Positions 19,626 through 60,914 of a stretch of DNA of 64,000 bases are shown piece by piece. Each line of letters starts with the position of its first letter. The first letter of the stretch is position 1. The translations under genes and the position numbers were made by a program. The stretch is from Peribolospora baueri (Eukaryota > Basidiomycota > Peribolosporomycetes > Peribolosporales > Peribolosporaceae): NCBI GenBank assembly GCA_029717555.1, contig JAMDHS010000056.1, positions 62,001 to 126,000 of the forward strand, read 5' to 3'. The notes below the pieces were generated by a model. It ran no database searches. It worked only from the letters and a program-made list of their open reading frames with translations, and was not told where the DNA came from.

Positions 19626-22600
19626 TCAGGACGCCCGGTAGGCGGCGAGCTTAGCGCTCAAAGCCTCGGCCGTCGGAGGCTCCGTATCGCTTTGCGGTTT
19701 CTTTTCTCGTGGCGGACCTCCAGCGCCGTTGGCCGTGTAGTTGAACATCTTGTGTAGCTCTGCGAGCTTGCTGTCCGGCGCTACTGTCGGTCGGGGCGGC
19801 GTGGGGCGAACTTCGCCGCTTCCGGAAGATACTCGGCTACCAGTTACCGGACTGGCTGGTGGCACCTCCTCTGCAAACAAAAATAACGATTTGTCAGTCC
19901 AGTTCGTAGAATTTCAGTCTGCAAGAGAACTTACGGGCATCGGCCATATCGACGAGATGTTTCTCGTGTTCGTCCTCCGCAGCATGATTGGCTAGCGCCC
20001 GTTTGATATACCGTTGGAAGATCGGACCAGTCTCCTCCAGCTGGTAATTGATCCGGCCATTCATATGGGGATGTGCCTTCTGGAACTCGTACAGCTCCCG
20101 AATGGCCTGTTAGATAGGACGACAGAGTGACAGCATGAAAGCGGTCAGTTGGCGCAACGACATATTGACAAACAACGAGACATGAGCTCACCGGTCGAGA
20201 CTCGTTCTTGTTCGCAATCTTCTTGAAGATGGCAGACAGCTCAGCATGCAACTTGTCCTCGTCAGAGATAGTAGACTGTCTACGGTCTTTCGAGCGGGCA
20301 GCTGAGGTGCTAGCCGCATCCGATGCAGACGAAGGGCGACTGATGACGCCTTCTTCTGTTGGCCGGCCTTCCTCCGAGGGACTGGTTGGCTTTTGGGCCG
20401 CTACAGGCGCGTTGTCGTTCAAAAGGCGCATCAAATACGGGTAGATGAAGCTGTTCTCCGGGCTCTCAATGAGCTCGAGCTTGTCATATACGTCCTCGCC
20501 GAAGGCTTGCACGTAGTTGGTTAAAATGACCTTGACTGTTCGAAGAGGCAAGTCGCTGAGCGGCAGGTCGTCTTGTGCGCGGCGCTTCCACTCCGCCGGC
20601 GGGATCGCCGACAAAAAGATGTCCACGTCGACGAGAAGCTGGCAGGCGTCGATCGAGCCGTCCTCGAGCGATGTTGGCAGCCGCTTCGAGATCTTCCAGA
20701 GACATTTGACCACTAGCTCGGCGAACTTTGCTCGTTTGGGCAACGTTTCTTCCGAGAGCTCCCTCATGTCTTCCGTCGCCTCTCTCAACATGCTGAACAA
20801 TGCACTATGTGAAGAAACGTAGCGAGACGCACTTGCTCAGCACGAATCGCTTTCTGAGAAACCCACACGACGTATAGCATGACTTACCTGAACAGGTTAT
20901 TGAGGCTGCAGGCGTTGAAGCTTCGGAGAACTATAATGTTGAGGTACTTAGAGTACGTCTGCGCTTGTTCGTCGTCTGGTCGGAAAGATGCGTCGATCAA
21001 GCGGGTCAAATACTCCGTGAGAAGGTGAAGGAGGGCGGTAGAGGAGACACCAGAACCGAGAGCATGGTCGTCGACCTCGGCAGCGGGGTCGAAGAAGCTA
21101 TTGGCGGTCGAGATGAGGTGCTTGCAGAGTCGCTGGTAGCCCTTCGAGTTCGGCTCGCTCCCAAGGCCATCAAAGCCCTTGCGCGTTTGGATAGCCATAG
21201 CCTCGACAAACTGGTCGGCGTGGACCATGAGCGAAGAAGAGCGCTTCTCGATGTGCCTATCAATCCTTTTAAGGGCCTCAGAGCTCCGATTCGGGTCGTT
21301 GCTGAGGATCTCGTTGATGATCACATCCACCATCGGACCGGATGCCGATGCGGACTGGACGGCTTCGTCGACCGTACCTCGCCTCCGATGCAGATCTTCA
21401 TGCGCAGACGCCGAGTCGACAGTCGCTGCGTCGCTTCCCGCATGCGAAACGCCAGACATTGGACGTACCTGCTGGGCGGCGTGTTCATCCTCTCCGTCGT
21501 AGGCAGACGTGGTTGGGGAGCGCATTCGCGAGGCCGGCCTAGAGACCGGTCTGGACACTTCCGAACCACGTCTTGACCGCGGCTGGGATCGCGTTGGAGA
21601 AGATGGCGTCACTCGGCCATCTTGGGAGCCAAGGCTACCACGCGGGGAAGGAATGGTCGATTCGCGAGCCGGGCGGGGAAGACCAGGCAGCTTAGACTTT
21701 GGTGGTTGACCGGCAGCAGGAACGTGGACAGACGACGGCCGAGCGAGACGGGAAGGGATCGCTGATGATCGTCCGATCCTGGAAGGCGTCGCAATCGCTG
21801 AGGCTGCGATGCCAGATGCTGGACCTGCGAAGCGTGCGCTGGTCGCTCCTGGCGGTGACGGCGCTACGGGCGTGGAGCGTCCTGGGGTGGCCGACACTCG
21901 AGGCGAGGCGGCGACCTTTCCGAGCGGACCCTCCGTTCGCTTTAGCCTTTCCGTCAGCAGGCTCTTGTCCTTGTCCCCGAGCTTGCCGACTAGTCCCCAA
22001 ACATCATCACCAATAAGCTTGTAGCCTTCGCCGATCGTATTAAGCGCCGCAGTGCGCACGTTGGCGTCACGGTCCGCTATAAGCGCCGCAATCGTAGGGA
22101 ATGCCTTGGAAGGCGTGCAGACCTGCAAAGAGTTTTTGCGAATGAGAGAACCGAGCTCTTCCAGCGACTCGGCTCTGGTGCGAGCGTTCTTCGACGGGAG
22201 GCCAAGCTCCAAGAGATTCGCAAACATCCTGCTCGGGGGATAGACACGACAGAGAGATTTGAAAAGACCTCGGATCCGTACACGAAAGACCTCTTTCGGA
22301 TCGCCGGACTGATGGGAAGGTAAAGATGGAAATCATTCAGCAGGGCACTCCTTTCAGCACCCGACAACTGCCGGGACCTACCTTGGCGATCAGACACGGC
22401 AGGAAGCAGGTAGCCTCATATTCGGTGATGTGGTAGTCCTCCTCATCAAGCACGGCGATGAGGTGCTCGAGGAGATCCAAGCACTTGACCGTCATGCTCG
22501 TGTTGTTGTCGGCGAAGCGAAGGGCTATGTACTTGAAGATGAGATCGGCGTTGGCGACGAAACGCCCGTTAATCTCCACATTAGACATTCCGTACTCCTT

Positions 22601-25600
22601 CTCGGCGACTGATGGATTGACTATGCAGTCGTTGAGGGTGTTTAAGCCGGAGAGATAGTCCCGCTCGCGTTGGTGGTCTTTGCTGAACAGCAGAGTAACA
22701 AGGTCCGCGCTGCTGCAGGGCTCGAACTGTTGACGGAGGTGATCGGTCATGTCCGCCCGCGGCTTCTCCTCCGTTACCCAGGCAAATGCTCGCCCTTCCT
22801 TCGCTGCCCGGAATTGCTTGAATTTAGGGTCAGCGCTGACGAAAAGCGGCGACTTGTCTCCTGCTGGAGCGGCAACAGTGGGCGCAGCCGCTGCCGGAGG
22901 ACGAAGACCGACTCCCGGCCGTTTCAAACCAGGACCGCCGATCCGAGACTTCGGCAAACCTACGCCAGACGTCGACTCAGGTCCCGGACTGTCGGGTGGT
23001 CGAAGGGAGGACGTTGGCGCCTTCAAGGAACGTGCAACAGCTGACGGCGCCTTGAGGCCACCCGGTCGTGGCAAGCCGGGTTTTGCAATACCAGGCCCGG
23101 CAGGCTTTGGGGAGGGTGCTGAGGAGGATACCGCGGAGGACGTTGCACGAGCAACTGGTGCTGCCGCAGCGGCAGGAGCAATAGCAGCGCCGTTCGGCTT
23201 CATCGCAGCGGCAGCAGGTTTTGCGGCGTCAATCATCGGGATGACGGTAGCGCGAGATGCAGCCTTGAGACCAGAAGTCTGGTCGACGACGTGCTTGTAC
23301 CCAGCGTTGGCGATGATGGCAGGCAGCAAGGCTTGCGCGGCTTTGCGAACATCACCGGACTTGTCCTCGAGGCAGACGATGACGGGCCCAGCAAGGGGGG
23401 CGAGGTCGAGCGAGGGGTTGGGATGATGTTCCTCGAACCATCCGGCAAGCCAACTTAACAAGTCCTTGCGCAAGGCTGGGTTAGCGCCCTTGCCCTCGAG
23501 TCCGGTTGCGAAGGCGGTAACCATGGGGTCGACGCCGCATTGTTCCGCAATGGCGGCAATGGCGCTGATGCCGGCGGCACGGATGTGGGCCTTCTGGTCG
23601 GCCAGCACAGCGACGATGCCCGGAGTGAGGTTCTTGGCGTACTTCTCGAATGGTTTGTTCATTCCGATGGCAATTCGCGCGACGACGCCGAGCGCAAGCA
23701 CCTGGACCGCCTTGTTGCTGTCAGTCAAGCGTGACTTGAGTGGAACGGTCAACTCGGCTGCAACAAGCAAAGAAATGTGATCAATCGACAATCGGACACG
23801 ATCGAAACGCCAGTGTCTTTCCTGGAGAGGGTGCACGCTACTCACTCATATTCGGTTTGAGCCGTTTGTGGCTTTCCAAAGTTGCCTCAATCTCCTCCAA
23901 CGCCTCCTTGCGCTCCTTCCAATTGGCGTTGTTGAGCCGGCTCACTGTAGCGGACGACACCAGCTTATCGAGATCTTGTCGCGGGAACAGATTGTCCAGG
24001 GCATCACCTCCACCTCCACCGCCGCCTCCACCGCCAGCGCCCGCTTTCCCGCCTTTCCCACCCCCACTAGGCGCCGCGTTGTCAGCAGAAGTGCGTGTCG
24101 GCGTCGGCGCACTCTGACCCTCGACTTTGGCGAACTCGCTCTCAATGGTGGACAGCAGTTGCGGGTTGAGGTCGGTGATGAACGTCATGATATCCGAGCC
24201 GACAAGGAGCTTGAGCGTCACGAGGGTTTTGGTCGCATTGCTTCTCACAGCCGCGTTAGAGGACTTGAGGTTGGTCTTGAGGAACTCGATCAGGTCTCGT
24301 ATCGGCACACCGGTGATGCCAAACTCCCTGAGTGCTTGCTCGATCCAGAGCAGCGAGTCGGCTTGAACTTTCGGCGCTTTTTGCTTGCTCATCGGTTCGA
24401 AGGCTGGCCGAAGGTCGAAGGGGCGAGACATAATCTCAAGTCAGACGAAATGATCGATAGAGGCGCCAGTCTCACCACGATGTTCCTTACCTTGAATGAG
24501 CACGAAGCCGAGCGACGTCTTCTCGGCAAACACCATAAGTGTCTCTCCCGCTGCCTGCTTCAGCTTGAGATCACCGAGCTTGTCGCAGAGTGGCTGAACG
24601 GAGATGGCGATGGACGATTTGCCGAAGGTGGGACATTTCTGCGCGAGGATGCTGAGGACGTTGTACACTTTGGACAAGACCTATGAACGAGGGACGACAG
24701 TCACCAGATCAATAATCAGTTGCGAGAAAGAAAGGGAGGAGCGAAGAAAATACGATGGCGCGACTCACCTGGAAGTTGCTCTCCTTCCAGCCCGGCTTCT
24801 TGGCCAACGCTCTAACGATCACCTCACTCTCCACCACCTCCGCCTGACCGCCCTCAAGCCACAGCTCCAAAGCCTCCATCCCAGCCACACGCTCCTTCCA
24901 TGCCGAGCTGGCGAGCCCTGCCGTGATCTCGCTCGGAATCAGCTCGGCAGCCCGCGCCTCGGCATCCTCTTGCGAGAAGCGGTACTTCACCGGCTCGGAA
25001 GCTGAGGAGCCGCCTTTGGGAGGCGGCGGTGGCGGCTTTGCACCGCCACCCCCCGCTGGAACTTTCTTGGCCGCTGCTGACGGAGCGGCCGTGGTGGCTG
25101 CTGCAGGTTTCTCCCCCAGAAATTTCGCTGGTGGCTTCGCCCTTGGCTTGGAAGGTGCGGGTGAGGAAACGTCAAGGCTGTTTGGCGGGTTGTTCTCCTT
25201 ACCCACGACCTTCGCAGCCGGTGGGCCGGTGGTTGGTTTCTGCAAAAAGGCAGATATCGGGGAAATTCAGATGTCATTATGGTGTGAAACCAATGTCGAG
25301 CAACAAGGGTACTCTAAAACGCACCTTGACGACCTTCTTTACCGGTGCAGCAGCTGTTCGTGGAGCGCTGGCTGGCTTTTTAGGTGGGGCAGCGGCGGTG
25401 GGCTTGTACTTGACGACGGCCTTCTCGAACTGCTCCTTGACCTTTACTTTCTTGATATCGTCCAAGCCCTCTACGAACGGGGCGAGCTGCCTCTCCCCGA
25501 CGACCTTCATGAGGCATCCCAATCCCTCTGCTCCGGAATCTCGGACCGGTGCCGCACCATCGTCAATGGCGGCGAGGAGGGCATCAGCGACGGTCTTAAT

Positions 25601-27614
25601 GTCCCCTTTGGCGGGAGGTTGGCGGGTGATCTTGAGGCAGCGGACGAGCCATTTAATCGACTCTGCTTTCACTTGCGGGTTCTTGTGCTTCGTCGCGGCG
25701 AGGATGTCTTCGAGAACGTCCGAGAGGGTGACCTATGAGCGGATCGGAGTTGACAGGCACGTCAGATGGAAAGATCTTAAGAGCGCAGTGCCCAAAGGCA
25801 AAGCGGAGGAGCAGATTTTACTCACGGACATGAACACGCCGTCCAGAGCATTAGACAGAGCTTCGATGACGTTAGCTTTACGTTCCTTGAGCTTCTCGAT
25901 CATAGGCGGCACGACGACAGACTTGTACTTGGCAAACCCCTCCCGAAGACCCTTGGCGAAGGCCTCGATACAGTTGACAGCGATGAGGACGACATTGATG
26001 TTGGAGTCGCCTTTGACCCTCTCGGCAAAAATGCGCACCAGGTCGTCGTGGCTCCTCCCGCCGTCTTCCGGCTTGATCTTCGGGGAGCTCTTTGCGGAGT
26101 TCAGGACGGCCTCCAACGCCTCCTTGCGCTCCTGCCACTTCTTCGACGCGACCAGGTCGTGAAAGCCTTCAGGCAGCTTGATTTCCGCCGGCTCGGCGAA
26201 ATCGAACGCGTCCAGCTCCTCTGGCTTCCCATCATCACCCGCCCCGCCTTCATCCCCCCCGCCCTCTCCATCCTCACCTTCACCCCCACTTGAGCCAGCA
26301 GCCGCAGCCGCTTCCATGGCCGCTCGTTGGCTGGCGAGATATCGGGTAGGCGTGCCCTTGCCAGCGCCTTCGCCCTTGGCGTCCAGCGCCTCGAACTGCT
26401 CCGTGAGCTCCTTGACTTGAACGGGCTTGAGCTCCTGCAGGGCTGGTTGGATAGCCGGCCCGATGAAACGGTAAATCCCTTGGCAAAGCAGGGCTCCCTG
26501 ATCAAGTCGTAGGAGCGAGGGACCAGAGTCGATCGTCAGTCGCGCAGTCCTTAAGAGGTCAACACGACGAATGGCCTTGGACTAGCGCGCACACACCTCT
26601 GCCCGAACGTTCTTATCAGAGTGGCCGAAGACCTTGGGAAGCTGCTTGAGGATAAGCTGAATCTTGACTGCTTTGTGACCGTAGGAGCTGCAGAAGCAAA
26701 GATCAAGGGGTCATTAGCAGATGAAGCGGACGGACGCCCTCCTCCGGATGTTCTCCGCTCACCCGACCATCTCCTTCAACGCCGTCACTGCTCCCGCAAC
26801 GACCTTTGGTTGTTTAGCCTTCAACCCTTCGATCACGTCGTTCTGAATATGCAGGCGGAGCGACGACGGATGGTGTGAGCGCGCGTGAACGAGGCCAAGA
26901 TGGCCCAGAAGGCTCAGAAGGCTCAGAAGAAGGGAATGGCGGACCATTCGCTCACCACCGGACCCTCAGACCCCTCCTTGTCCTCCATCTCGACATACAG
27001 CAGAACGACCTCGAGGCCATGCTTTCTTGTTCCCGCCCGCGTCGACCCCAAACACTTGTCCACGACCGATGGCAAGACAGCTTCTCGAGTACTATCGAAG
27101 GGAGAGAAAGAGAAATGATGGAGTGAGTGACCCGCAAGGGAACGACACGGTTCGGATACCTCCTCCGGCTGGCCCCATCCCCGATGTTCGAGTCCACAAT
27201 AAAGAAGCTTGAAAACCTACCTGCCCGCTCGCCTCCCTCCAAACTTCAGAAAGGCACTCAAACACTCCACACCCTTCTCATGCGCGACAGCGTTGGAATC
27301 AGTGACGATCTTCTTCAAGAGATCGGGGTTTCGGACGTAAGGTGTGAAGACGGGGTCGTCCTCGTCCGGCGTTACGGAGAAAGCTTTTTGGAGGTCTTCA
27401 TAAGCCGATAATCGGGCTTTCCAGACCTGCCGGTAAGGGCGCAGAAAGTGGAAGAGTGAGATGTGCAAGGGTGAGACGCCAGGATGCAAGGTCCTCTCGG
27501 CCGAGCAACGGCACGAGAAAGAGCATAGAGGCTGGCAAAGCACACCTTGTGAGCCAACCGATCCTCAATGGAGAGACTCGAAAAGTCCTCTTGAGGAGCG
27601 GGAGCGCCCTCCAT
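19626..27614 (-). CDS. XMAP215/Stu2/Alp14 family microtubule polymerase, five TOG domains
   Basis: Processive plus-end microtubule polymerase acting at spindle poles and kinetochores. Start at 27614 (IEDRLAHKVWKARLSAYEDL opens TOG1). Five TOG arrays follow in order: TOG1 to about 26.3 kb; TOG2 about 26.2-25.3 kb (SKKWQERKEALEAVL); TOG3 about 25.0-24.1 kb (SSAWKERVAGMEALE); TOG4 about 23.98-23.2 kb (NANWKERKEALEEIE); TOG5 about 22.8-21.9 kb (LLFSKDHQRERDYLSGLNTL). Ala/Pro/Gly-rich linkers separate them. A Ser/Pro/Arg-rich basic stretch (about 21.9-21.4 kb) is the likely lattice-binding linker. The C-terminus has the family's conserved tail (IFKKIANKNESR, IRELYEFQKAHPHMNGRI), ending at 19626. 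The protein is roughly 2,100 to 2,300 residues. Ascomycete yeasts have only two TOGs, so this is the long, metazoan/plant-like form. Confidence 0.92.
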
Positions 27615-43779: not shown

Positions 43780-43894
43780 GCCGGAGTGGCCCAGCGGGTA
43801 GAGGCACGGTCCTTATAGAGTCGCATTTCCCCTTTTGGGAAAGCGTCTATACACTGCAAGGCCGCAGTCGTGGGTTCGAGCCCCACCTCCAGCA
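43780..43894 (+). tRNA. tRNA-Ile(UAU) with a 41-nt intron
   Basis: A cloverleaf can be drawn. The acceptor 5' strand is 43780-43786, the D arm has the A box TGGCCCAGCGG, and the anticodon stem is CGGTC at 43807-43811 pairing with GGCCG at 43860-43864. The anticodon TAT is at 43814-43816, the T arm is GTGGG/CCCAC around TTCGAGC (B box), and the acceptor 3' strand is CTCCAGC ending at 43893 with discriminator A. The intron (43818-43858) sits at the standard place, one base 3' of the anticodon. The acceptor stem has one C-A mismatch at pair 3-70. A T5 run beginning at about 43903 fits Pol III termination. Codon read: AUA. Confidence 0.88.
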
Positions 43895-56278: not shown

Positions 56279-59240
56279 TTACGTGCTCATCTTGAGCGGC
56301 GTGAGATGGAGAATGCGGAAGCGAGAGTTCATGCCCTCGTCCTCGCCCAAGCTCTTGTCTGTCCCTACACGGATGCCACACATGGTTGACATGGGCAAGC
56401 CCTTACGGATGCCTTTCTTGATCTTCGACTTGAGTGCCTTCGTCTCTTTTCTCTGGCCGGCCGTCAAGCCATTGAGAAAGTCCTTGTACATGAGCTGCGA
56501 ATGATAGAGCTCCCTGGGAGTTGAGCAAAGCAGACCTGAAGGAGAATAAACAAAAGCCGGAGGCAGAAGATATCGTTGAGCTGCTGGCTGCGATGCGATT
56601 TAACGGAGAGACCTGTGACTCACCGAGGAACTGTAGGAGCTCTTTGCTCACAGACACCGTCCGCCGCTTACGCCTCTCGAGGATGAACACCTTCGAGTAC
56701 ATGGACCGGAAAGAAACGAACTGCTCCTCCAGCGGGTCGGTCAAGTCTTCAAGGGCTGATTCCGTTCCTCGCTCTCCTGAGGAGGCTGTACGACCGAAGG
56801 AGAAACCGGTAGAGGATCCGGCCAATTCCCGAAGATGAGGCTCGAGACAGGTGTCGTCCTCTCCAGTTCTGACGCTGTGTTAGCTCGGATGCGGAGGTCG
56901 GGTACGTCTCCATTAGCCAGGGGAGGTTCGTCGACTTGGCCAGAGACCGGAGATGTCCACTTGCCCATCTATGAAGTAGCATAACCTTCCCACGTCGTCT
57001 GGAACGGGGATGATGCACAGAAGACACCAAAACGGTTTACCATCTTTTCGATAGTTGATGAGGAGCTCACAGCAGGGCCGTCCAGCCTTGAGCGCTGCTC
57101 GGATGTGCCTCACCGCATCAGGCGCTGTCGCAGGGTCTTGAAGCAAGCGGCAGCTGCGACCGACGATCTCTTTCCGTGTGTAGCCCGTAAGCGCGACGAA
57201 GCGGTCACTCACCGCGACGACGGGGTTACCAGGTTGGCGTGGGTTCGTCAAACAGAAACAGTCGCCCAGCCCGGACCTCACGTCTGCGCTCAGGTGCGGC
57301 TTTGTGAGGAGCACTTTGCTCTCCTCGGCGATGCAGTGCCGGATGTAACGCTTGAAGTGAACATCGTATAGGCTACGTAAAAGTTCACTCTGGGACCTCG
57401 AGAACAGCGGCTTGAGGGATGCGATCTGATTCAAGGAAGAATTGAGCTCTCCTTGGTTTTCTGCCTCGAGCGGAAAGCACGTCAGAGAGTTGTCCACGAC
57501 GTAGGCACCTGCGGGATGAGCACGAACACGTCAGCCAGAATTGGACCTGGAAGCCTTGAGCGGAAGGGCTCATTCACAGATAGGGCGTTAGCACGCGAAT
57601 GAGCCTCAGGAGCACAACTCACGGTACAAGTGGGTCGCATGCCACTTTGCCGAGCGCCAGCCTGTCGAGGGTCCGAATCTCTCGCCACATGTCCACCTTG
57701 AACTCTGCTCCATTCCCCTCCCCCTTGCACCACTCTATGAAGTGAGCCCGTCCCAGCTCGTGCTCGAGGACTCTCTCAAGCGCTCCCTCATGCAAGAGGT
57801 GCTCGACGGGGAAATCCAAATCGGTTCTCAGAGATCGGCTCGGCCACGATCGGGACTACGGCTGATTTGAGCGCGAGCGGGATCAAGTCGTCCATGGTCT
57901 GTCGAACGAATCTGCCGCTCGACCGAGACAGGTATTCGTCAAGCGCCCAGTTTTCCATCAGCCTGTTCGGCTGGTGACGGTGCTCAGGGCTAGGCCCCTC
58001 TGTGCCGGTAGATGGGCGCCCCTGAGAAGAAGGTTCGGAGTGAACGCTAGTCGACAAGACGACGGCCGGATGGAGGCCTGGTGGAGTCTGGGCTAGGCGT
58101 TGATCCATTCGCCCTTTGTCGACAGCCTTGGGTTGTCCCAAGCGCATTAGCTGGCCAGGGGCAGAGGTGCGTCGTGATGGTGTCCAGAAATCGGAGGGAG
58201 TGAGCACCTTCTGCTTCTGATCGATCTTCTCCTTGCCATCGATGGATCCTGTTCGCATGTGACAGACACCCTGTCGTTGACCATGAGCGGCACTCCCCAC
58301 CGCTTCGCTGGCTTCAATATGACCGTGAACCGGGACCGAAGTGGAGGTGGCCTGTGTCGAGCGCTCGGTGTGCTCTACCCACTCGTCTTTAAATAAAGAA
58401 GTGGAGATTACATGAGGGAAATTCATAAAGTCGGTCAGCCACGTTTTCTGTCTCTGCAGAATGAAAATTAAACCAGAGGAGAAAACACAAAAAGTTCCGG
58501 GAAAGGTCGGCCACAGCCAGAGGGACCTCACCTTCGGACTCCTTGATCGTCTCCAACTGCTTCCCAAGGCCACCTACACGCCCATCATCACCATTACCAC
58601 CAGACCCCCCGCCGACGCTACCACCTGCTCCCGCATTATCATGTTTATCTTCATCGCTAATCTGCGCTGTTAGTCGATTGCCCGAGACGTTGGAGTTGCC
58701 GCGTTGGATTGCTCCGGGTTTTCCATGGCCTTTGACGAGGATCTCATGGACGACGAGGACGACGAAACGAGTGAAGAAGAGGAAGCCGATACGCTCTCGT
58801 TCCCGGTTTCGCCGCAGGAGGTGGGGGTGGGGTAGGAACGATGCTTGTCCCCCTCGGAGGGCAAAGAAGACGGCATGGGAGGGAAAGGGCGGGCGAGTTC
58901 CGCAAGCAATGTGCGCATGGCGGCGAAGGCGTTTTCTCCAGTGTCCACGGACCCGGGCGTACTCCAAGGGCTCATCGGTCGGGTACTTTACGCTCGCCAC
59001 TGGAGGGTCTGCGCGGTTGGACCCAGTCTGGGAAGGCGAGAGGAGATCGAGGAAGGTCATCTCGGGGTCGACGGCCGGCTTGAATCCCGGCTCCCTGCCT
59101 TTGCCCTCAGTTGAGGCGTAGGGCGGTTGAGGAGGACGCTGAGGGGAGGACGTGCCGAATAGTTGCGGTGAGAGTGTTAGTGAAGGTGAAGGCAAGGAAA
59201 CGTTGACGTGTTGAATCAAACTTGAGTCGGTTCCCGGCAT
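56279..59240 (-). CDS. RGS-LOV blue-light receptor-like protein (BcLOV4 type), frame apparently broken
   Basis: RGS domain followed by a LOV photosensor, the order of fungal RGS-LOV proteins such as Botrytis BcLOV4, which binds membrane lipids in blue light. The N-terminal exon (59240-58532) is disordered and acidic. A canonical intron leads to DEWVEHTERSTQ (58386). RGS: HEGALERVLEHELGRAHFIE, then MWREIRTLD and HATHLYRAYV. LOV (about 57.3-56.95 kb): CFCLTNPRQPGNPVVAVSDR, GRSCRLLQ with the photoactive Cys at 57150-57152, LLINYRKDGKPFW and FIDGQV with the key Gln. The Asn of the usual GxNCRFLQ is Ser. The C-terminus (MYSKVFILERRKR, LYHSQLMYKDF, a Lys-rich helix, HLTPLK) also matches. No canonical intron explains two frame changes in the RGS part (near 57815 and 57660) and one after the LOV (near 56945). 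It is a pseudogene, or there are sequence errors. Confidence 0.72.
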
Positions 59241-60914
59241 GTCATCTTCGTCGTTGTTATCATCGCCGTCACTTGGATCAATGCTACCGGCTTGCCTCGG
59301 GGGTTGCTCACCGCGGATGGCTACGGATGACTGGGTGGATGCGACAGAGCCGTCGTCGTCATCTTCACTCGCGACTGTAGACGGAGCTCGGCGGGGAAGA
59401 GTTGCAGACGACGGAATCGATGTGCTCTCGCCCGGGACGCGCTCGTTAGATTCGGCGGTCTCTTTACTCGAAAGTCGGCGGGCGTCCTCTGGAGCGCATC
59501 GTACCGGGCGATCGTCGAAGACGACCGAACCGATGCGTCGTCCGGGACAAGTTCTTCAACTTGGGTGTTGGGGGTCTCGTTATCGGGACGACTCCCGGCG
59601 TCCTCTCGAACGCTTCGTTCTCTTCCTTTCCCCCTCATAAAGGGACCAAAATCGCGCTCTAGATGCCCTCCCCCTCGGCCGAGGCTCCCTCCCCCTGCAG
59701 CGCCCGGAGATCTGGCAACGAGAAGGGCCTGAAGAGATTCAAACCATTGTAGAGATCGAAAGAGAGCTTGCCTTTGAGAAACAGCGAGGTCTCGGAACGG
59801 CTGGAGGCAGTTGTGCGGCGGCGCTGGAAAAGGAAAGGGGGCGTGCTGGAGTCCGTTTTCCCCACATGACGGGCCGTCTCAGGTTTGCTGGAAGCCGTCG
59901 ACGCTGGGGGACAAGCGGTCGAGCACGCTTGGCCGGTCTCAACGAAGCTCACCCTGTCCAGCTTTGGAAAGGGCTTGCGGGTGGCACGCTTCATTCGATG
60001 AGAAGACTTGACATCCGACGTTGTGCGGTGTCCATGGCGATGTGCGGAAGAGGCGAAACAAGTCAACGCCGACCATCGGTAGTCCAAGGACGCTCTGAAT
60101 GGCTCGAGCACGGAAGTGGACATATGCGTATACACTCACTTCGACCAGTCGTTGATGACTGTATGCGGGGGGACGCGTTTGGTCGGCCTGCTAGGAGTGA
60201 AATAAGGCGGATTGGCGAGAAAGGGTCGAAGGGAATACCAACGTCGCAGACGTCGTCCGAGTCCAGCGCGAGTCTAGCCGGTTTAAATAAGGACCAGGCG
60301 TCGGTCAATGGAACCTCCCCTGTTGTCCATGGGCCCAGCATCCCCTTGACATGAGGGCTCAGAGGTCGTAGCGCTCCTTCCATACCGCCTCGAGCCGGTT
60401 GGACTACTGTCTCCAGGATAGGAGGTGAAGGGAAGACGGAAGTGCGAGCGGACGCGCTTCACTTGCCGTCCGCGAATTTCGAGGTCAGTTGCAACAAAAT
60501 GTTGTTTGACATTGTGATATGGGAGAGGGACGCGGCGAGGTCGGCTCGTGCGCTTCGAAAGGAGCGATCGCTCATGGACGCCGGTGGATGAAAAGAGGGG
60601 TCCGAGCCAACCAAGGCGAGAGAGCGAGAAAGGAGGGACGTGTTGCGAGGAGCGAGACAAAGGCCACTTGCGGTCGTCGAGGTTGGAGCGCCGATTCGGT
60701 TCGTCATGAATGGGATGAAATGCCAACAACACGGGCCCAAGCGACCTCGCTCGCTCCCCTTCGCATACTGTGGACGCCCACGTCTGGCCGATGGCATACA
60801 CACACCAAGATGACGGACGACGCCGACGCCGCCGCTCTTTGGCCAATCCAGCGGGTATCCGGCCCTTGGCAGAGGGATTTTGCAACATGGCGTAACTGGT
60901 ATCAGCGAGAGCAC
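59241..60914 (-). other. uncertain minus-strand coding remnants upstream of the RGS-LOV gene
   Basis: The RGS-LOV frame stays open from 59240 up to about 59540 (RRLSSKETAESNERVPGE, then an Asp-rich run), so exons may continue upstream. Other protein-like pieces on the same strand are ARYDALQRTPADF (about 59.5 kb), ETSLFLKGKLSFDLYNGLNL (about 59.8 kb), ALDSDDVCDVGIPF (about 60.25 kb) and MSNNILLQLTSKFADG (60.5 kb), the last ending at a possible GTGAAG donor. I could not join them with good junctions. They may be N-terminal exons of the RGS-LOV gene or a separate small gene. Confidence 0.3.

Follow-up and report, generated by a model that had tools for sequence, protein, structure and literature searches.

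The window, a stretch of 64,000 nucleotides (59% GC) from the basidiomycete Peribolospora baueri, forms part of one contig (C130) of an intron-rich genome of 22.1 Mb in 178 contigs. On its minus strand, from 59240 to 56279, lies a gene of the RGS-LOV type, in which an RGS domain is followed by a LOV domain and by a pair of exons encoding a basic C-terminal part (Table 1). No second copy of this gene, intact or otherwise, was found by DNA and protein searches of the genome. Elsewhere in the window, a large minus-strand predicted gene composed of many short exons (19626-27614) gave TOG/HEAT-type Pfam matches (XMAP215/CLASP type), and a tRNA gene is located on the plus strand at 43780-43894 (Rfam RF00005, 37.9 bits).

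Table 1. Features of the RGS-LOV gene of P. baueri, numbered as in the window.
Feature	Position	Strand	Evidence
Predicted N-terminal exons and introns	58387..59240	-	low-confidence, low-complexity protein starting from ATG at 59240; path of the model when frame changes are disallowed
Pre-RGS stretch, frame 1	57791..58386	-	open up to TAG at 57790
First frame change, frame 1 to frame 0	57790..57855	-	open frames; model at 57824
First half of RGS, frame 0	57652..57810	-	Pfam RGS in read-through
Second frame change, frame 0 to frame 2	57623..57734	-	open frames; most likely ~57672-57640 (Pfam scores); model at 57647
GT-AG intron, 114 nt	57509..57622	-	donor 6.6, acceptor 3.8
Second half of RGS, frame 2	57267..57506	-	Pfam RGS in read-through
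LOV domain, frame 2	56949..57266	-	PAS_9 74.1 bits; PDB LOV domains down to 2.4e-27
Strong unused splice donor GTGAGT inside LOV	57207..57212	-	score 7.5
GRSCRLLQ, photoactive Cys motif	57138..57161	-	direct reading
FWCLL, Cys where PDB relatives shown have Asn	57018..57032	-	alignments to PDB LOV domains
GQVDIS, last LOV strand with conserved Gln	56949..56966	-	direct reading
Candidate GC-AG intron spanning both TAA	56869..56964	-	GCAAGT donor, acceptor 56875 or 56869; would remove LOV Gln
C-terminal exon 1, frame 2	56624..56879	-	open frame, model
GT-AG intron, 88 nt	56536..56623	-	donor 7.5, acceptor 4.6
C-terminal exon 2, basic stretch, HLTPLKMST end	56279..56535	-	model, direct reading
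Possible short-LOV frame, 228 residues	56913..57713	-	ATG 57713, intron 57622-57509, TAA 56915-56913

Gene structure was assessed with a coding and splice model trained on approximately 255 kb, comprising the window up to 55500 and 200 kb of another contig (C93), with the target gene excluded. The trained model held 145.6 kb of coding sequence and 456 introns, which are predictions without cDNA verification; they have a median length of 103 nt, a GTGAGT or GTGAGC donor in 232 of the 456, and acceptors distributed as CAG (353), TAG (77), AAG (25) and GAG (1). When GC donors were permitted at the stricter penalty, 12 of 365 introns on C93 (about 3%) were placed as GC-AG, and those placed on C93 (1-190000) and in the window had mostly GCGAGT or GCAAGT donors. 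At the locus itself, the N-terminal part gave no positive homology and the pre-RGS open frame (frame 1) no Pfam match. Without frame changes, the model prefers an unbroken path from 59240 to 56279 that splices out both the RGS core and the LOV core. We take that path as an artefact because homology shows the parts spliced out to be coding, although it is plausibly what an annotation pipeline would have recorded.

The identity of the LOV domain is certain on sequence homology. It lies within a 205-codon minus-strand frame (56913-57530) with a PAS_9 match in Pfam of 74.1 bits, and its homology to solved LOV domains extends across the entire domain, the closest being those of bacterial LOV kinases and plant phototropins (E values to 2.4e-27, frame residues 94-194). 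A bacterial and archaeal scan returned 6 relatives at 24-38% identity, and a viral scan returned no relatives; neither result entered the assessment of the gene. Within the flavin pocket, FWC stands in place of the FWN of the aligned PDB relatives, and the Asn replaced presumably contacts the flavin. Given that a change of Asn to Cys requires two base changes, this substitution suggests an older divergence rather than fresh decay. It is more unusual than the Ser for Asn in the photoactive motif, where GRSCRLLQ retains the Cys and does not match the consensus GXNCRFLQ (PMC12202551). The preliminary description had called this second substitution unusual, but it is not evidence of decay: WC-1-like frames of the same genome (C93, ~242.2-245.6 kb) read GKGCRFLQ, and a partial copy of them (C89, ~188.8-189.6 kb), which ends inside the LOV and looks like a duplicated fragment, reads GKSCRFLQ. 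Judged from these sequences, the consensus is not strict, because the WC-1-like frame departs from it too. The PAS_9 score of the LOV in the RGS-LOV gene was 74.7 bits in this comparison, as against 60.6 bits for the WC-1-like LOV. The LOV exon also contains three strong unused splice donors in 564 nt, a number reached by one of 246 predicted-exon windows and by one of 188 windows taken from long unspliced open reading frames, which provides an indirect hint of relaxed constraint.

Other photoreceptor genes were sought across the genome. A WC-2-like frame, with a PAS domain and a GATA zinc finger recognized by eye, is located on the same contig at ~143.3-145.9 kb, about 25 kb from the RGS-LOV gene; the names WC-1-like and WC-2-like follow what we take to be the domain architecture of these families. 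Together, the WC-1-like and PAS-GATA frames would point to a fungus. Phytochrome (PHY) and photolyase/cryptochrome (FAD_binding_7) domains gave no match genome-wide in an exon-by-exon search, which may miss intron-rich genes, and the same type of search returned one borderline piece of an opsin (C22, 24.7 bits against a cut-off of 24.6).

The RGS domain precedes the LOV and exceeds the Pfam cut-off (23.9 bits) only when read across a frame change, with 25.0, 26.3 and 29.0 bits for three read-throughs that connect the frame-0 first half to a short frame-2 end and, beyond the intron, to the frame-2 second half. Keeping frame 0 up to the intron donor was rejected, the score falling from 29.0 to 18.6 bits; it was 13.3 bits with the core skipped, and neither the second half alone nor frame 1 gave an RGS match. 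A phmmer search of the read-through against solved structures found no RGS at a significant level (E 0.39 for RGS14, 0.022 for an unrelated protein), and hence the RGS assignment rests on Pfam. The earlier reading of an RGS-then-LOV order with the photoactive Cys and Gln is thus borne out by the RGS read-through and the LOV homology. It had also placed two single-base frame changes, about 155 bp apart, within the RGS. Two changes do occur, and the positions called by the model (57824 and 57647) fit that spacing, but only one is inside the RGS proper: the first, at query residues 51-52, precedes the Pfam match, which begins at residue 63.

Both changes shift the frame in the same direction, and hence they do not cancel one another. 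For the first break, 112 intron candidates with GT or GC donors were enumerated, and the best summed score was 3.1, with 0.7% of training introns at or below it; the best eight all combine a GC donor with a GAG acceptor, and every GT candidate scores 0.0 or less. At the second break, just two candidate introns spare the second half of the RGS, both with weak GC donors. GT-AG introns as the cause of these two breaks (30-600 and 30-300 nt enumerated) were rejected on score. The possibility that the RGS core begins a gene of its own was rejected because frame 0 has no ATG ahead of it.

A third frame change had been proposed after the LOV. There is no net change at this point: the LOV and the C-terminal part are both in frame 2, each reading open as the preliminary description had stated, and TAA occurs twice in the stretch between them (56915 and 56882). 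An intron may be present here. Among 22 candidates in which the final LOV strand is retained, the top GT donor is poor (0.2% of training) and the leading GC intron is weak, with 6.4% of training introns at or below its sum. The GC-AG candidate at 56964-56875 or 56964-56869 has summed scores of 10.2 or 9.6 against a training median of 9.74. Beyond the stops, the C-terminal exon pair is joined by a GT-AG intron with good scores and encodes basic stretches (24 K+R against 14 D+E), for which no convincing solved relative was found (best E 0.8). After splicing, one continuous frame through the gene is therefore absent, given two changes without an acceptable GT-AG intron and two TAA codons after a LOV that carries its photoactive Cys and Gln.

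To place the breaks against a background, frame changes were allowed in the model at penalties of -30, -16, -12, -9 and -7. None was called at the first two. At -12, the model made one call in the window (57824, in the RGS-LOV gene) and one on C93 (111.7 kb of coding sequence). Relaxing the penalty to -9 gave 3 calls in the window, of which one lies in the RGS-LOV gene, and 4 on C93 (112.1 kb); at -7 there were 12 in the window, 6 of them in the region of the RGS-LOV gene including 57824 and 57647, and 13 on C93 (112.6 kb). A third piece of the genome, of 5.8 kb, gave no call at any penalty. Of 62 simulated deletions, the model recovered 28 at -12, 40 at -9 and 46 at -7. The calls thus single out the first break, whereas the second rests mainly on Pfam because the model calls it only at -7. 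Of the 6 calls outside the gene at -9, five appear by eye to be leader or exon-edge artefacts; a frame change at about position 27225 of C93, in a predicted gene, may be genuine or may reflect an overlooked intron. The calls at -7 in the low-complexity N-terminal part (58699 and 58959) were discounted as the predicted-intron path reads through both, and those at 59462 and 59660 as they are upstream of the predicted start. Frame changes are thus rare in the other predicted genes of C93 and the window.

Signs of relaxed constraint were also sought in the coding parts. Synonymous codon usage in the homology-supported parts is ordinary: it equals or exceeds that of 26.5% of control samples, and a value as high was not attained in any of up to 1000 noncoding draws. 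The coding-model score of the LOV, lower than that of all 211 control exons, was rejected as a sign of decay since the synonymous-codon control pointed to amino-acid composition. The domain stretches contain no stops, though they were picked as open frames; given two or three frameshifts and indel:substitution ratios assumed at 0.05-0.2, 0.37-2.19 nonsense mutations would be expected, with a probability of none of 0.11-0.69. Of the earlier suggestion that the gene is decaying, the part that stands is that no acceptable GT-AG intron accounts for the two changes; decay itself is unproven, the codon usage being ordinary and the domain stretches free of stops.

The explanation we favour, with confidence that is evenly balanced, is that this RGS-LOV gene of the BcLOV4/MoRgs5 type, the sole one found in the genome, recently lost its continuous frame. 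We infer that the breaks are probably true mutations and that function would have been lost with them; if the gene is dead, its death would be recent, as the LOV and C-terminal exons still read cleanly. In favour of a loss are the RGS match that requires a frame change, the lack of an acceptable GT-AG intron at the first two breaks, the rarity of frame changes elsewhere and the unused donors in the LOV exon. Against it are the ordinary codon usage, a PAS_9 score above that of the WC-1-like LOV, domain stretches free of stops, the intact introns and the dependence of the second break mainly on Pfam. A gene that is intact, with breaks that are local sequence or assembly errors, and that makes an ordinary RGS-LOV receptor is a possible but rather unlikely reading. 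The LOV, the C-terminal part, two introns and the codon usage resemble those of a living gene, changes of the single-base type in otherwise clean stretches look like sequence errors, and an intron at the third spot would leave two changes to explain; with frame changes so rare in other predicted genes, however, a pair inside some 180 nt would imply a fault particular to this locus.

Improbable, by comparison, is a surviving short-LOV protein of 228 residues, cut off from the first half of the RGS and from the C-terminal part. Its spliced frame is open from ATG to stop with the Cys and Gln retained, the LOV is the best-preserved part of the gene, and short LOV proteins are noted in fungal genomes in a review. 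Such a protein would nevertheless keep only half an RGS, probably unable to fold, its ATG frame may be a matter of chance, and the C-terminal exons remain open with a good intron and coding-like codons, which would not be required of them if cut off. That a membrane receptor has been converted in this way to a stand-alone soluble switch, caught early, appears a shade more improbable again; if true, light signalling through membrane and G protein would have been swapped for a soluble LOV switch with its own ATG, intron and stop. A continuous product by unusual splicing, through the GC-AG intron at 56964 or the path that removes the RGS and LOV cores, is very improbable. The GCAAGT donor at 56964 scores at about the training median, a weaker GC candidate (56917-56786, sum 5.5) spares the LOV strand, the model does use GC donors on C93, and the unbroken path exists if both cores are removed. 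The good variants, however, come at the cost of the RGS core, the LOV core or the Gln strand of the LOV, and the first break is without an acceptable intron, GT or GC. Moreover, the model chose the intron at 56964 at neither penalty, and a CTAAC branch site for it would be 5 or 11 nt away from the acceptor. Sites of this kind occur in 181 of 429 training introns, at a median distance of 34 nt, and in 16 of these 181 the distance is below 12 nt.

Under the favoured explanation of a recent loss, and by analogy with what is described for BcLOV4 and for RGS proteins, the protein of the ancestor would have used a LOV-bound flavin to sense blue light. Light would then have exposed the basic segment after the LOV, permitting it to bind anionic membrane lipid, and the RGS thereby carried to the membrane would have accelerated GTP hydrolysis by G-alpha; two G-alpha matches in the genome are possible targets. 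In the present gene, the RGS would be disrupted by one internal and one just-upstream change, and stops part the LOV from the C-terminal part, such that standard GT-AG splicing of the gene as assembled would yield no full-length protein. A gene caught soon after breaking would make it possible to date the loss and to ask which light responses disappear alongside it. Should the breaks be sequence error, the known RGS-LOV sequences would gain one whose flavin pocket is unusual and which is of possible use to optogenetics. No broken RGS-LOV gene was described in the titles and abstract openings of the open-licence literature matches listed in a narrow search.

Of known systems, BcLOV4 of Botrytis cinerea is reported to bind anionic membrane lipid upon exposure to blue light; according to a review, its N-terminal RGS seems to prevent membrane association in darkness, and illumination is considered to uncover an amphipathic, polybasic linker that follows the LOV (PMC8993538). 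Compared by architecture, not sequence, the P. baueri gene likewise has an RGS, a LOV and a C-terminal part with basic stretches; unlike BcLOV4, its frame is broken twice around the RGS, stops follow the LOV, and FWC replaces FWN. MoRgs5 of Magnaporthe oryzae is described as having an N-terminal RGS and a C-terminal PAS/PAC, and LovB of Fusarium fujikuroi as a flavin photoreceptor type with an RGS domain (PMC10056346). By description only, the P. baueri gene shares with both the combination of RGS and PAS/LOV, whereas they are described as intact ascomycete genes and its frame is broken. Its ATG-to-stop frame resembles fungal short-LOV proteins (BcLOV3 and LovA) in presenting a LOV without a full effector domain, and differs from them in retaining the second half of the RGS. 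A review reports RGS-LOV proteins in Magnaporthe, Botrytis and Fusarium and not in Aspergillus or Neurospora (PMC10056346), a patchy distribution with which losses are to be expected.
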